From: an uncultured Gammaproteobacteria bacterium
GTDB lineage: Bacteria; Pseudomonadota; Gammaproteobacteria; Pseudomonadales; Pseudohongiellaceae
Direction: 5' to 3'
Assembly: GCA_913060495.1 (NCBI GenBank)
Contig: CAJXRP010000003.1
Span: forward strand, 62,001 to 126,000
DNA: 64,000 nt
Positions 8,506 to 50,092 of the stretch are shown piece after piece. The notes beneath the pieces are model-generated. The model worked only from the letters and a program-made list of their open reading frames with translations. It did not search any database and was not told the DNA's origin. Numbering within the stretch: position 1 is the first letter of the stretch; each line of letters begins with the position of its first letter. The position numbers and the translations under genes are program-made.

Positions 8506-9504
8506 TTAGTCTTCAGATTGCGCTGCAAGCCTCTCTTCGGCGCGATGACCGGAAAGAATATTTGCCATTCCGTAATTGCCCTCGTGGCAGGCGTACTCGT
8601 AGATGTCGTCCGTTGTATAGTCGAGAACGATTTCGCGAGTATAGGGTGCTGTAAAACTGCCTGGGTCATCGGACGTGAATTGGTATTGAATCGAATCCTT
8701 GTCGATTCGAGTGAGGCGTTCAACATTAATCTTACGAGAAACCTCAGGTCCGGTGCTGCTCTTATCCGAGTAATTCGTTGTCTCGATTACTAAAGTATCC
8801 TCATCCCAATATCCCCGTGAATCTCCATGCCAGAGTTTGATGTCTTCATGGATATGCGGCTTGGCTACTAAGGGGATGATGCGTACATCGTGTGCCATCT
8901 CTTGAATGATTGCGACGGTGTCGCGAGTCTGCACGATCTGCCAATAGCTGTTATATCCAGAGCCCAGCCGCGGCGCTCCGAAACTAACGCAGCGCTCGCC
9001 GAGAGGGCGGTCTGTATACGAGTCGGCGGGGTGGTCCTGCCTGTGTTGAGCCAAATCACGTGCTGCAGCAACAGCTTGTTCGGTGCGTGGAGGATATTGG
9101 CCATTAGGAGGATCAATGATCTGTGATGTTCGGCGGTGGATTTTCCTATCTACCATCCATTGGGAATCATAGTTTCCGGTTGAGGGGTCATAGGAATTAA
9201 TCTCGCCACTAAACGCAGCGGCTAGTACGCCTTCACCGAACAATGCATCGCCTCCCTCCGCCATAATCTGGGCCATGCGCTGTTGTAGAAATTCTACATC
9301 ATCATCGGTGAGCATTTCTTTGTCGCCGAAGACCTCTGGTCGCTCTACCGGTGTAATGGTATTGTTTTCCCAGACACCCTGCAGATCGGGGTGTCCATCA
9401 ATGGTTCGGGGGAGAGCCCAGTCACTGCTAGATTGAGCCAGACAGAGGCTGCTGACTAGTATAAGTATGGCTGCGGACCCGCAGTGGTATAGGACTCTGA
9501 TCAT
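8506..9504 (-). CDS. Exported PDLQGxW/CHEGNY family protein, copy 1
   Basis: A 332-residue exported protein (signal peptide ending LCLAQ). It belongs to an uncharacterised family defined here by GHPDLQGVWENNTITPVERP near the N-terminus, MAHDVRIIPL, YWDEDTLVIETTNYSD and a C-terminal YEYACHEGNYGMANIL. Two further copies lie at 28842-29870 and 49112-50092 with the same order of motifs. The mature part is beta-rich and has a conserved Cys-His pair in ACHEGNY. No function is known to me; the family is common in marine proteobacteria and Acidobacteria. The gene stands alone, convergent with the DUF7282-like gene. Confidence 0.75.
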   Translation of the reverse strand: MIRVLYHCGSAAILILVSSLCLAQSSSDWALPRTIDGHPDLQGVWENNTITPVERPEVFGDKEMLTDDDVEFLQQRMAQIMAEGGDALFGEGVLAAAFSGEINSYDPSTGNYDSQWMVDRKIHRRTSQIIDPPNGQYPPRTEQAVAAARDLAQHRQDHPADSYTDRPLGERCVSFGAPRLGSGYNSYWQIVQTRDTVAIIQEMAHDVRIIPLVAKPHIHEDIKLWHGDSRGYWDEDTLVIETTNYSDKSSTGPEVSRKINVERLTRIDKDSIQYQFTSDDPGSFTAPYTREIVLDYTTDDIYEYACHEGNYGMANILSGHRAEERLAAQSED

Positions 9505-28841: not shown

Positions 28842-29870
28842 TTAGTTGTTTTCTTGGGCAGCTTGAGCATCGGCCTCTGCGCGGCGCGCCCCGGCTAGAA
28901 TGCTCGGCAGGCTGTAGTTGCCTTCATGGCAGGCGAACTCATAGATCTGCTCGCCATCACTCTTGCGCAACAATTGCATCTCTAGAGTTAAAGGTTGTGT
29001 GTAAATAACAGGGTCTTTCACTGTGTAGCGATAATAAATTTCACCGTCAGATATTAGTTCAAAATATTCTGTAACTTCAAATTGATCAGAAGACTTCATG
29101 AAAAAATTTGATTGCTGAGGGTGGAAGCCCGTAGTGTGAACGACCAGTGTATCTTCTTCCCAGTGAGCTATTGAGTTTCCAAACCATTTGGCGAACTCGT
29201 TCTTTTGTCGTTCCGTACCAATCGGTATGATTCTGGCGTCGTGTGCCATCTCGGACATGAGCATAAAATAGTCTTCGGTTTGGACGATCTGATAGTTGGC
29301 ATTGTAAGTCCAAGCCATCATCGGTGGCATTTGCGAACCGACATGCAGGCAGCGTTCCATCTGGCTGCGAATCTCTGGCCCGTCGTAAGCGCCGAGTCCT
29401 GCGGCTCGCCACTCACCGAACACATCCTTGTTAGCGCCATTCTCAACATAGGGATAGCGACCGTCAGCAGGCTCGACAATCAATGAAGTACGATACTCTC
29501 CGTTAATCTGGGTGATGTTGATTCGAGTGTTGGCGAAATTCTCATCTGCTTGAAACATGATTACGCCACCATCTGCAGGAGCCGTGCGATCTGGTTGGAG
29601 AGGAGCGGCTTTATCTGAATCTGATTGCTGCGCAGAAGACTCTAGCGCTGACGCCTCCTCGAATGTGTAGCTGCGTTTGTCGCCAAGACTCGTGGGACGC
29701 TCAATAGGAGTCTGGCTGGCATTGTTCCAATATCCTTGAAAGTTTGGGAATCCGTGCTCGGTTCGTGAAATATAATTGCTGTCCTGAGCCTTGAGGACTA
29801 TGGGGAGCGCCGTTAGGAGTGTTATTAAAGCGAGATGGCCGAACCGTTTTTGAGTGTTTGAACTTGTCAT
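28842..29870 (-). CDS. Exported PDLQGxW/CHEGNY family protein, copy 2
   Basis: A 342-residue exported protein (signal segment LALITLLTALPIVLKAQ). Motifs in the same order as the copies at 8506 and 49112: GFPNFQGYWNNASQTPIERP, MAHDARIIPIG, HWEEDTLVVHTTGFHP and YEFACHEGNYSLPSILAGAR. An Ala/Gln-rich stretch (about 75-100) is specific to this copy. Function unknown; the conserved Cys-His of ACHEGNY is the best candidate for a functional site. Confidence 0.75.
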   Translation of the reverse strand: MTSSNTQKRFGHLALITLLTALPIVLKAQDSNYISRTEHGFPNFQGYWNNASQTPIERPTSLGDKRSYTFEEASALESSAQQSDSDKAAPLQPDRTAPADGGVIMFQADENFANTRINITQINGEYRTSLIVEPADGRYPYVENGANKDVFGEWRAAGLGAYDGPEIRSQMERCLHVGSQMPPMMAWTYNANYQIVQTEDYFMLMSEMAHDARIIPIGTERQKNEFAKWFGNSIAHWEEDTLVVHTTGFHPQQSNFFMKSSDQFEVTEYFELISDGEIYYRYTVKDPVIYTQPLTLEMQLLRKSDGEQIYEFACHEGNYSLPSILAGARRAEADAQAAQENN

Positions 29871-30044: not shown

Positions 30045-31898
30045 ATGTCGCAAAACTCTACGAAGTCCCGTCGTGATTTTCTAAAAGGTGCAGCAGTTGT
30101 AGGCGGCGCATCTTCTCTAGGTGCCTGTGTTGGCGCGCAAAGCGAGCCCTATGCAAGCTACAAGCACACTCCCAGTTTCTACCCTAAGCACAATGAGCGG
30201 ACTAAGGGTTGGATGCGCTTTATGTGGCAGAAGGCTACTACAGCCGATGATTGGGGATATTCTGAGGACATAGAGCGTCCGTGGGGGATAAATATTCCCA
30301 GGGGCGAGATAGATTGGACTGAAGATGGAAACGGTCCTCATCCCTGGTGGGATCAATACAATGCACCGCCTATGCTCAGTTATCCGCGCTTCGATCTAAG
30401 CGATTCGAGCTACGTCATCATGATGATGGCCGATCAGACTCCTGCCTGGCGTGAAGCCTATACCCGTATCTTGGATGAACTAGCAACACGGCACACTTCC
30501 TACTGGGCAGCAATAGATTGGAATACTTTTATCGGCCCCAGCCCCGATCGGGAGAACTACGGCCCGGGTAGTGCACCGTTTTTTCAGGCTTGGCCAGAAC
30601 GGGTTCGTGGAAACTATGACTCGGCCGGTTGGACTGCAAATGGTGTTGAACCTTGGGGTCTGCAGCCCGACCCCATTGGAGCCGATGGCAATCTGTTCTT
30701 TCGCGGCTGGTTGAACCTTTTGCTTACCATCTACAAGTATGTCTCCGGCGACGACAAGTGGGAGAAGCCCTGGCAGATAGCGGGGTTTGAGAACGAGAAG
30801 TTCGAATGGACGCAGCCTCGTATAGTCGAACATCTGCACAGGCAATACACCGATCATCCGGAGGGGCCGCAGTGTGAAAACACGAAGATTTGGCCGTTCT
30901 GTAATTCGGCAGCCGGTCTAGGGATGTATCTTTCTGACAAATTAGGTGTGACCAACTCTCATGGTGTGTTCGAGGAATGGATCGAATTCATGCGCGATAA
31001 CTATATGAGCATCAATGGTCAGAATCAGATCGAATGGATGACGATGTATTACGATCCGATTGCAGAATTTAAAGTAAATATTCCCGGTACTGGAGGGACG
31101 GGTGCAGGTACTGCGTTCTATCTAATGCCTCAGTCACCTGAACTTGCCACGCAAATATACGAAGCTACGGCCAACTCCTTAGGCTGGCGAGATCCAAGAC
31201 AAGAAATTAGTCCCAGTGCCACCGGTTTGGCAATGGCCAAGGCACTGGGCGATCACACTGCCGTTTCTCGGCTCAGCGCCGCCGCCGAACGCGCCTCTGA
31301 CCCTAAATGGTTTGGCGATGACATGGACAAATTTGGCTGGTGGTTCAATAACGATGATCCATGGCCCCGCGGACAACCCTCTGCGCAACAAATGATTAGC
31401 GAGATAAACGAAGGCAACTGGGTAGATGCATTCAAGGTGCAGCATCTCGATAAATACACCGCGCCTACGCTTGAAGGCGTAGAGTATCCAAGTTTGGGAG
31501 TCGATACCGCCTGGAACGATAAAGAGAGCGGGGTATTGCACATCGGTACCTACGTGGCCGACCGTGGCAGAGCTGGTGATGCTACTAGTTGGCAGATCAC
31601 CAATTTGCCTAACGCCGCCGAGGCTATTGTTATCTGTGATGGAACGACTGTTAGCGATGTGCAGGTTCTTGATGCTAATACTATTCGTGTGCCGACAGAT
31701 ATAGGGCAGCATCAATACCAAGTGTACACAGGTTATTTTGGTCAAGCAGTTGCGATGACTAAGCCTGATCCAACCGTGTCCGCAAGTGCTGCTATTGCTT
31801 CTGCTACGCGCAGAACTGCAGAGCAAAATGTCAAAGCAGCGGAAGCAGTTATTGCAAGCGGAGCAACTGGCTGCCCTTGCTGCGCTAGTGTGGTCTAG
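30045..31898 (+). CDS. Tat-exported linalool dehydratase/isomerase-like protein with CPCC tail
   Basis: A 617-residue protein. The N-terminus SRRDFLKGAAVVGG is a twin-arginine signal, and LGAC at 25-28 may be a lipobox. The central part resembles linalool dehydratase/isomerase (LDI) of Castellaniella, an (alpha/alpha) barrel: NLFFRGWLNLLLTIYKYVSG and QCENTKIWPFCNSAAGLGMY align with LDI [20 protein letters not shown] and CEPDNYFVQCNSVAYLSLW. The two LDI active-site cysteines (171 and 180) correspond to Cys277 and Cys286 with equal spacing. LDI His129 corresponds to Trp222, so the chemistry probably differs. The last residues contain GCPCC (Cys610, 612, 613), a possible metal-binding tail. The MerP-like and MerT-like genes follow, so a role in metal handling is possible. 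Alignment is by eye from memory of LDI. Confidence 0.72.
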   Translation: MSQNSTKSRRDFLKGAAVVGGASSLGACVGAQSEPYASYKHTPSFYPKHNERTKGWMRFMWQKATTADDWGYSEDIERPWGINIPRGEIDWTEDGNGPHPWWDQYNAPPMLSYPRFDLSDSSYVIMMMADQTPAWREAYTRILDELATRHTSYWAAIDWNTFIGPSPDRENYGPGSAPFFQAWPERVRGNYDSAGWTANGVEPWGLQPDPIGADGNLFFRGWLNLLLTIYKYVSGDDKWEKPWQIAGFENEKFEWTQPRIVEHLHRQYTDHPEGPQCENTKIWPFCNSAAGLGMYLSDKLGVTNSHGVFEEWIEFMRDNYMSINGQNQIEWMTMYYDPIAEFKVNIPGTGGTGAGTAFYLMPQSPELATQIYEATANSLGWRDPRQEISPSATGLAMAKALGDHTAVSRLSAAAERASDPKWFGDDMDKFGWWFNNDDPWPRGQPSAQQMISEINEGNWVDAFKVQHLDKYTAPTLEGVEYPSLGVDTAWNDKESGVLHIGTYVADRGRAGDATSWQITNLPNAAEAIVICDGTTVSDVQVLDANTIRVPTDIGQHQYQVYTGYFGQAVAMTKPDPTVSASAAIASATRRTAEQNVKAAEAVIASGATGCPCCASVV

Positions 31899-31942: not shown

Positions 31943-32275
31943 ATGCGAGTACTTAGAGTGTTATTTCGAAAGACAACAGAGGCGATAATGCTAGCAGTGT
32001 TGTTATTGCTGGCTAGTGTTGCAAGCGCTGATATTGCTGACACCTTGCAGCAAGGTGAAGAAGTTGTCGTACTCAATGTAGAGAACATGACCTGAGTAGG
32101 CTGTGTTGTTGCCGTGCGCAACTCACTGAAGAAAGTCGAAGGCGTAAAAAAGATCGAGGTAGATCTAGATGACAAAACTGCAACGGTGATCGTTGCGAGT
32201 AAAGAAGTCGATACATCGCTATTGATTGCTGCCACAACAAATATTGGTTTTCCTTCTGTGGTGAGAGAGCAGTAA
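31943..32275 (+). CDS. merP: MerP-like heavy-metal-binding protein with in-frame TGA, likely selenoprotein
   Basis: A 110-residue reading frame if TGA at 32093-32095 is read as selenocysteine (residue 51). A signal peptide (IMLAVLLLLASVASA) leads to a heavy-metal-associated domain: VVVLNVENMT-U-VGCVVAVRNSL, KKVEGVKKIEVDLDDKTATV, NIGFPSVV. In MerP and other HMA domains the motif is MTCxxC, so the TGA replaces exactly the first metal-binding Cys while the second (VGC) is kept. Everything after the TGA is in frame and conserved, which argues against decay. AGAGG at 31929-31933 supports the ATG at 31943. The gene lies 44 bases after the LDI-like gene and 47 before merT. It should bind a soft metal such as Hg(II) in the periplasm and pass it to MerT. 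No selABCD genes are in the window. Confidence 0.85.
32093..32126 (+). promoter_or_regulatory. Sec UGA codon and candidate bacterial SECIS hairpin
   Basis: The TGA codon is 32093-32095. Downstream, GTG (32103-32105) pairs with CAC (32124-32126), then a small internal loop, then GTTGC (32108-32112) pairs with GCAAC (32118-32122) around the loop CGTGC (32113-32117). Known bacterial SECIS elements are stem-loops inside the coding region just after UGA, with a G in the first two loop positions some 16-37 bases from the UGA. Here the G at loop position 2 is 19 bases after the UGA. Stem strength was judged by eye only. Confidence 0.65.
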
Positions 32276-32322
32276 GAATCGCTTAGTTAGACAATGTGTG
32301 TCTTCACAGATCGAGGTTAAGT

Positions 32323-32682
32323 TTGCAAACAACAAAACAGAAAGCCGACTATCGCCACTTCATTGCTGGAGGAATCGCTACATCTCTTACGGCGAGTATT
32401 TGCTGTCTCGGCCCGTTGACACTTCTGGCAACAGGGGTAAGCGGAGCTTGGATGAGCAATCTGATGTTCTTCGAGCGCTATCAAACAATTCTAGTTGCGG
32501 CCACGCTTCTCGCCTTCGCGCTTGCTGGGCGTAGTGTGTTCTTCGCGACGAATGCGGCGGACGAGAATAGTTGCTGCGAAGAAGAAGGGCCAGGATGGAA
32601 GAAGGCTTCCGTCTTCGGCGCGAGTTTCTGCTTGGCTTTGGTGTTCATAAGTAGTGAATATTGGATTCAATTTTTAGCATAG
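32323..32682 (+). CDS. merT: MerT-like mercuric transport membrane protein
   Basis: A 119-residue inner-membrane protein with three hydrophobic segments, like MerT. The first segment holds ASICCLGPLTLLATGVSGAW, the Cys-Cys pair that takes Hg(II) from MerP, followed by a helix LVAATLLAFALAGRSVF and a loop with NSCCEEEG, the cytoplasmic-side Cys pair. TTG at 32323 is chosen as start because GAGG at 32313-32316 is six bases upstream and MerT proteins begin at about this point; a GTG at 32296 would add nine residues. It would move Hg(II) inward, although no merA or merR is present in the window. Confidence 0.85.
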   Translation: MQTTKQKADYRHFIAGGIATSLTASICCLGPLTLLATGVSGAWMSNLMFFERYQTILVAATLLAFALAGRSVFFATNAADENSCCEEEGPGWKKASVFGASFCLALVFISSEYWIQFLA

Positions 32683-49111: not shown

Positions 49112-50092
49112 ATGAAAAAAATAATCTGCCTTGTTACAGCTTTACCTATTTCTGTGAGCATGACTTTTGCCATCGCTGCGGAAAATTATGAGCCGCCCAA
49201 GACTGCTTTTGGCGTTCCAGATGTTCAGGGCATTTGGACTTATGAAACGAGGACGTCGCTGCAGCGGCCGGAAATCTATGAAGGCGCGCTTGAAATAGAC
49301 GAAGAGACAATGTTGGCGAAGATGATTTCCACGGAGGAGTACAATAAGTTTCTTGCAGAGACTGGTGCCGAGGGGCCTACCGGCGGTGCTGTTGGAGCCT
49401 ACAATGATTTTTGGTTTGCACCAGGCAATGCGTTGGCGGTTATGAACGGCATGTATCGAACGTCTTTAATAGTTGATCCAGCCGATGGACAGATTCCTTG
49501 GAAGGACGGTGGTCAGGAGATTCGTCAAGAGCAGCGCAACAGTTTGTTAATGGGAAGAGATAGAAGCGATGGGCCCGAGGGTAGGGCATTGGCAGACCGT
49601 TGTTTGGTCAGTTACGCATCGACGATGCCTTTCGTAAGTAGTTTCTACAACAACAACATGCAGATTGTGCAGTCTCCTACGCATGTCATGCTGTTAGCAG
49701 AGATGGTTCACAATGTGCGCGTGGTGCGTATCGATCAAGACTTTCGTGATCTGCCCTTTAAGCAGTGGCTAGGTGATTCTATCGGATACTATGAGGACGA
49801 TACCTTGGTTGTCGTCACCAAAGATTTTAATCCTTGGCAGATTAAGGAATATTTGATTTCCGAGAACGTGACGCTAACCGAGCGCTTTACTCGAGTTGCA
49901 GACGATAGAATTCACTATTCATTTACTATCGATGACCCAGAACTTTATACGCAGCCATGGACGGCAGAGATGCCTATGGCGGCTCTCAATGAGCAGATGT
50001 ATGAGTACGCCTGTCATGAAGGCAACTATTCGCTACCTGCTATTCTAGCTGGTGCACGTCGCGGAGAGATAGACGCGAGCGAGAGCCAATAA
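49112..50092 (+). CDS. Exported PDLQGxW/CHEGNY family protein, copy 3
   Basis: A 326-residue exported protein (signal ending AIAAE). Motifs as in the copies at 8506 and 28842: GVPDVQGIWTYETRTSLQRP, MVHNVRVVRID, YYEDDTLVVVTKDFNP and YEYACHEGNYSLPAILAGAR. Less similar to copy 1 than copy 2 is, judged by eye. It lies downstream of the alpha/beta hydrolase on the same strand, 83 bases away, perhaps in one unit. Function unknown. Confidence 0.75.
   Translation: MKKIICLVTALPISVSMTFAIAAENYEPPKTAFGVPDVQGIWTYETRTSLQRPEIYEGALEIDEETMLAKMISTEEYNKFLAETGAEGPTGGAVGAYNDFWFAPGNALAVMNGMYRTSLIVDPADGQIPWKDGGQEIRQEQRNSLLMGRDRSDGPEGRALADRCLVSYASTMPFVSSFYNNNMQIVQSPTHVMLLAEMVHNVRVVRIDQDFRDLPFKQWLGDSIGYYEDDTLVVVTKDFNPWQIKEYLISENVTLTERFTRVADDRIHYSFTIDDPELYTQPWTAEMPMAALNEQMYEYACHEGNYSLPAILAGARRGEIDASESQ

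Follow-up and report, generated by a model that had tools for sequence, protein, structure and literature searches.

A MerP-like protein with a very probable UGA-encoded selenocysteine at its metal-binding site in one genus of marine Gammaproteobacteria

Selenocysteine (Sec) versions of the mercury-binding protein MerP are already known from ocean DNA; Table 2 of the GOS selenoproteome (PLoS Genet 2008, PMC2398784) lists a "Mercuric transport protein MerP" with two sequences from one sample and no Cys homologues counted, an entry that bears out what an earlier note made from the letters of the present DNA (hereafter the sequence-only reading) had said of Sec Mer-type proteins in marine metagenomes. 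Among the selenoproteins named in later reviews are a UxxC cation ATPase, a UxxU metal-binding protein and a mercuric transport protein of the MerT family. The gene described here, merP(U), is a well-supported further case of this kind. It has in common with the GOS entry, as judged from the listing, that each is a marine MerP-type protein put down as a selenoprotein; the GOS entry comes with no motif, genome or operon, whereas here there are 28 genes with their operons and the Sec machinery. In the literature searched, no description was found of the hairpin, the operon or the clade of merP(U). Classical MerP (PDB 1AFI and 1OSD; NCBIfam TIGR02052) shares with the merP(U) product an HMA domain, an NMTCxxC-type motif, a signal-like hydrophobic N-terminus and a merT neighbour; in contrast to it, merP(U) has a UGA, very probably coding for Sec, for the first Cys, reads VAVRNS instead of ITVKKA in helix 1 and, in the genome under study, lies outside a merR-merA operon. 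Two other NCBIfam families, the UxxU (seleno)protein NF041115 and the MerT/CopZ fusion-like selenoprotein NF045683, likewise have HMA-type domains in which Sec is the likely metal ligand, and NF045683 pairs MerT with HMA, as does the merP(U) locus. However, merP(U) would contain a single Sec (UxxC), forms a distinct protein that carries a signal-like sequence of its own, and stands next to a separate, Cys-type MerT; it scores below the cut-offs of both models (53.6 against 95 for NF041115 and 72.7 against 375 for NF045683). The UxxC cation ATPase also uses UxxC in metal transport, but it is a P-type ATPase and not a free-standing periplasmic protein.

The window, that is, the whole stretch of 64,000 nucleotides that was analysed, comes from an uncultured gammaproteobacterium of the Pseudohongiellaceae, and the features discussed here are collected in Table 1. 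The merP(U) frame translates as MRVLRV...VENMT-TGA-VGCVVAVRNSLKKVEGV...VVREQ-TAA, with a sole in-frame TGA and a TAA stop at 32273. With C placed at the TGA, the Pfam HMA model PF00403 matches residues 43-103 (E 3.8e-13) and the TGA coincides with the first Cys of the HMA CxxC, so that the motif reads MT-U-VGC. The sequence-only reading had proposed this frame, had put the TGA exactly on the first metal-binding Cys and had expected standard annotation to miss or split the gene; the translation and 28 homologues with one TGA there uphold the frame, the PF00403 alignment fixes the position, and gene calling by ordinary rules indeed yields a 50-residue fragment stopping at the TGA. An internal re-start at GTG 32114 was considered and dropped, as its product would be without the UxxC motif. 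When the window was screened for TGA codons beside Cys outside long ORFs, merP(U) was the sole candidate with recognised homology, and the four further hits resembled noise. From the conserved UGA, the coding conservation that follows it, the synonymous constraint at a downstream hairpin, a full Sec machinery and other UGA-containing genes in the genome, we infer that the UGA is very likely decoded as Sec, with a probability of about 0.95.

Table 1. Positions of the merP(U) locus in the window and of two UGSC-family genes elsewhere in the source genome (G000)
Feature	Position	Strand	Basis or remark
TAT-signal linalool dehydratase/isomerase-like (Ldi) protein	30045..31898	+	PF18566 E 3.2e-14, TAT signal
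merP-like gene, UGA read through (merP(U))	31943..32275	+	signal-peptide-like N-terminus and HMA domain; 110 residues, U at 51
In-frame TGA, probable Sec codon; first ligand in the metal-binding motif (UxxC)	32093..32095	+	TGA in 27/27
Putative bacterial SECIS, GUG UU GUUGC [CGUGC] GCAAC U CAC	32103..32126	+	codon invariance and bSECIS geometry
merT-like gene (membrane mercuric transporter)	32296..32682	+	PF02411 E 1.9e-22
UGSC-family gene L141	G000:C2:203531-203953		TGA at U
UGSC-family gene L142	G000:C9:93475-93900		TGA at U

A merT gene follows merP(U) in 26 of 27 loci, the exception being L032; the window MerT-like protein has CC in its first membrane helix, and its homology starts at about position 32338. 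On the upstream side the neighbour is the Ldi-like gene, whose product ends in a Cys-rich tail (...GCPCCASVV). The order Ldi-like gene then merP(U) is found in 23 of 27 loci, and the tail of the Ldi-like proteins contains CC in 23/23 and CxCC in 22/23; a Streptomyces Ldi homologue ends about nine residues past the part matching residues 50-560 and is without it. In one subclade, three loci pair merP(U) with merT and have no Ldi gene. The CxCC tail recalls how the MerA proteins in loci L134-L137 end, with SCCAG. Elsewhere in the genus, four genomes contain canonical operons made up of a merR-like gene, merT, a Cys-type merP and merA; no MerA above the curated cut-off was found in the source genome. 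Neither merR nor merA lies directly beside the window merP(U), and only a paralogue in one genome, G076, adjoins such an operon: there (L135 2101-3052), a small gene that is merC by appearance and a second merP(U) are followed directly by merR-merT-merP(Cys)-merA. This second merP(U) has the same hairpin block, and Sec and Cys forms of MerP are thus encoded side by side; the arrangement is the best link of merP(U) to mercury. Elsewhere in the window (8506-9504, 28842-29870 and 49112-50092), as well as in L009 (5362-6381) and L132 (13536-14549), there are paralogues of about 330-340 residues with a similar N-terminal PDLQGxW-like motif, seemingly members of an expanded, exported family.

The most likely function of merP(U), and a probable one, is that of a soft-metal carrier, presumably for Hg(II), passing its metal to MerT. 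Its product would be an exported, single-domain HMA protein of the MerP type, the periplasmic Sec-x-x-Cys pair of which would most likely bind a soft metal ion, with Hg(II) as the best candidate and Cu(I) or Ag(I) as possible ones, and the metal would then be handed to the membrane protein MerT encoded alongside. The high affinity of Sec for Hg(II), by which the sequence-only reading made sense of the exchange of Cys for Sec, may be the rationale for it. A selenoprotein with some job other than mercury, be it a Cu/Ag chaperone, a thiol/selenol redox protein or a partner in MerT-like transport of another soft metal, is a possible but distinctly less probable alternative. It draws on the PDB sequence matches, the best of which are HMA domains of copper ATPases with MerP further down, on the lack of a MerA above cut-off in the source genome, on the Ldi-like operon partner and on the difficulty of separating Cu from Hg HMA domains by sequence; on the opposite side, the MerT neighbour in nearly all loci is more Hg-specific than an HMA domain, the G076 paralogue stands beside a canonical mer operon, and the MerP model TIGR02052 outscores the NCBIfam copper-chaperone models, even if its 60.2 bits against a cut-off of 92.55 make merP(U) a relative outside the curated equivalog. 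An extension of the mercury-carrier reading is more speculative still and rather doubtful: the Ldi-like protein with its CxCC tail, the Sec-MerP and MerT might together constitute a previously undescribed soft-metal operon for Hg or organomercury in Pseudohongiella-related marine bacteria, separate from classical mer, in which the exported Ldi-like protein would give up the metal, by way of its Cys tail, to the Sec-x-x-Cys carrier.

The distribution of the UGA codon was followed in 195 relatives, searched with the merP-like protein and with the neighbourhood of one inspected. In all, 28 genes share a single TGA at this codon; they come from 27 genomes of one genus, the source genome of the window among them; the record titles name one uncultured Pseudohongiella sp. 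and one member of the SAR86 cluster, the rest being unclassified MAGs of Gammaproteobacteria or Pseudomonadales. In the aligned set these homologues are 38-85% identical to the window protein, and the second Cys is invariant. No such UGA form was found among the searched relatives outside the genus, and the plasmid and phage collections yielded nothing closely related to merP(U). Cys occupies the UGA position in the 39 other homologues checked (from Massilia, Lysobacter, Thioglobus, alphaproteobacteria and others), which mostly read PITVKKA and are without the hairpin block, as are the Cys MerPs that the genus of merP(U) encodes in true mer operons; the sequence-only reading had proposed looking for homologues with Cys or UGA at this site, and the two forms divide in this way, UGA in one genus and Cys elsewhere. 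In a tree built on few alignment columns the Sec forms make up one group, with support of 88/87 and in 91% of bootstrap trees. The homologue frames stay open past the TGA and end at a similar point, and the gene is not decaying, because dN/dS after the UGA is 0.09-0.47 (pairs with estimable dS); the earlier claim that the frame after the TGA is conserved and free of drift thus stands. Blemishes that may be decay or assembly error were seen in single loci: the merT of L041 (G009) contains two in-frame TAA/TAG, that of L026 (G038) a frameshift, and the N-terminus of the merP(U) of L028 (G073) lies in another frame. Two weak MerP-like matches, at G086:C1:1257727 and G103:C2:71363, are each reported with one internal TGA in frames of 763-890 aa.

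Just downstream of the UGA, conservation extends to the choice of codons. Codons +3 (TGT), +5 (GTT), +6 (GCC), +7 (GTG) and +8 (CGC) are each a single codon in all 27 tabulated sequences, and codon +9 is AAC in each of the 25 that have Asn; in comparison, the invariant residues outside the block (L at -7, L at +11, G at +16 and V at +22) use four to five codons each, while A at +29, the same residue in 26/27, uses four. The proportion of synonymous differences over codons +1 to +10 is 0-0.23, as against mostly 0.3-0.8 on the flanks (all but the closest pairs). This synonymous constraint has the look of an RNA element under selection and is not explained by coding alone. The block coincides with a SECIS-type hairpin at the right distance from the UGA, in agreement with the proposal of the sequence-only reading that a bacterial SECIS be sought there. 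The hairpin, to whose stem the DNA segment GTTGCCGTGCGCAAC contributes, consists of a 5-bp upper stem (32108-32112 with 32118-32122), an apical loop (32113-32117) with G-U, a 3-bp lower stem and a U bulge. Measured against the bSECIS limits printed in PMC13188914, the window hairpin falls within them, with a 5-bp stem, a 5-nt loop in which G is second and followed by U, a UGA-to-loop distance of 17 nt and an energy of -8.1 kcal/mol; the minimal hairpins of several species reach only -5.2 to -6.1 kcal/mol, weaker than the energy limit of -7.5. The window hairpin folds with an energy no better than shuffled sequences reach (z 0.3-0.4), and RNAalifold gave no covariation support for the upper stem, two measures that are uninformative because the stem hardly varies. 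An Rfam scan of the whole window, and another with a permissive E-value on the 121 bases surrounding the TGA, returned no SECIS or other relevant match. The case for a SECIS is built on codon invariance and geometry.

The source genome (3.6 Mb in 45 contigs, estimated 100% complete) has a complete Sec machinery. It contains a single tRNA-Sec (selC) with anticodon TCA (66.9 bits against a cut-off of 47), SelA (571.8 against 268), SelB (387 against 242) and SelD (286 against 125), so that the four genes the sequence-only reading had singled out for a search are all present above curated cut-offs. The selD match falls towards the C-terminus of an ORF of 757 aa (L133 8633-10906, G000:C21), in which SelD is seemingly fused to another domain. 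Across the genus selB is above cut-off in 74 of 84 genomes, and its co-occurrence with merP(U) within the genus is therefore uninformative; SelB is also found in 16 genomes from other genera of the family, and no selB match was obtained in three of the 27 merP(U) genomes (G008, G039 and G058), which are drafts 65-85% complete. Other UGA-containing genes, also anticipated as a check, came to light in the form of two UGSC-family genes whose TGA coincides exactly with the U of the UGSC motif, one above the curated cut-off of 125 and the other at 122.2 bits, so that Sec use in this genome is not confined to the merP-like gene. The block TCGTGCAGTTTGCATGA after the TGA is common to both. Searches for a Sec formate dehydrogenase gave matches without TGA and below cut-off, and no further selenoprotein; a search for SelW gave no match.

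Taken in this setting, SelB and tRNA-Sec would decode the UGA at codon 51 as Sec. The signal for this would be a hairpin that lies in the part of the gene coding for the first HMA helix and has its loop start 18 nt past the UGA. UGA can in general be read through by near-cognate tRNAs, and decoding without Sec, by such non-specific readthrough or by a genome-wide reassignment to Trp or Cys, has to be weighed; it is very improbable, as TGA is an ordinary stop that ends 5 of the 34 long ORFs of the window, and the code is thus not reassigned, while several species even use TGA to terminate merP(U), tRNA-Sec, SelA, SelB and SelD are all present, and a reassignment would not need an invariant hairpin block. 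The least probable reading of all, which can be dismissed, is a Cys-type merP hit by a simple nonsense mutation or a sequencing error, hence a pseudogene or an artefact. In its favour, TGA is one base from TGT and TGC and the related genomes are mostly drafts assembled from metagenomes; against it, the same codon is TGA in every one of those 28 genes from 27 separate genomes, the frame beyond it is open and under purifying selection, and the synonymous sites just downstream are invariant.

With Sec decoding as the preferred reading, a two-sequence metagenome entry becomes a genus-wide, genome-resolved selenoprotein with an operon, a putative SECIS and the Sec machinery. The merP(U) protein would offer an experimentally approachable case in which Sec is a likely metal ligand in transport and not in redox catalysis. 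It also suggests how a SECIS lying within a gene can dictate which residues make up a helix of the protein, here VAVRN instead of ITVKK.
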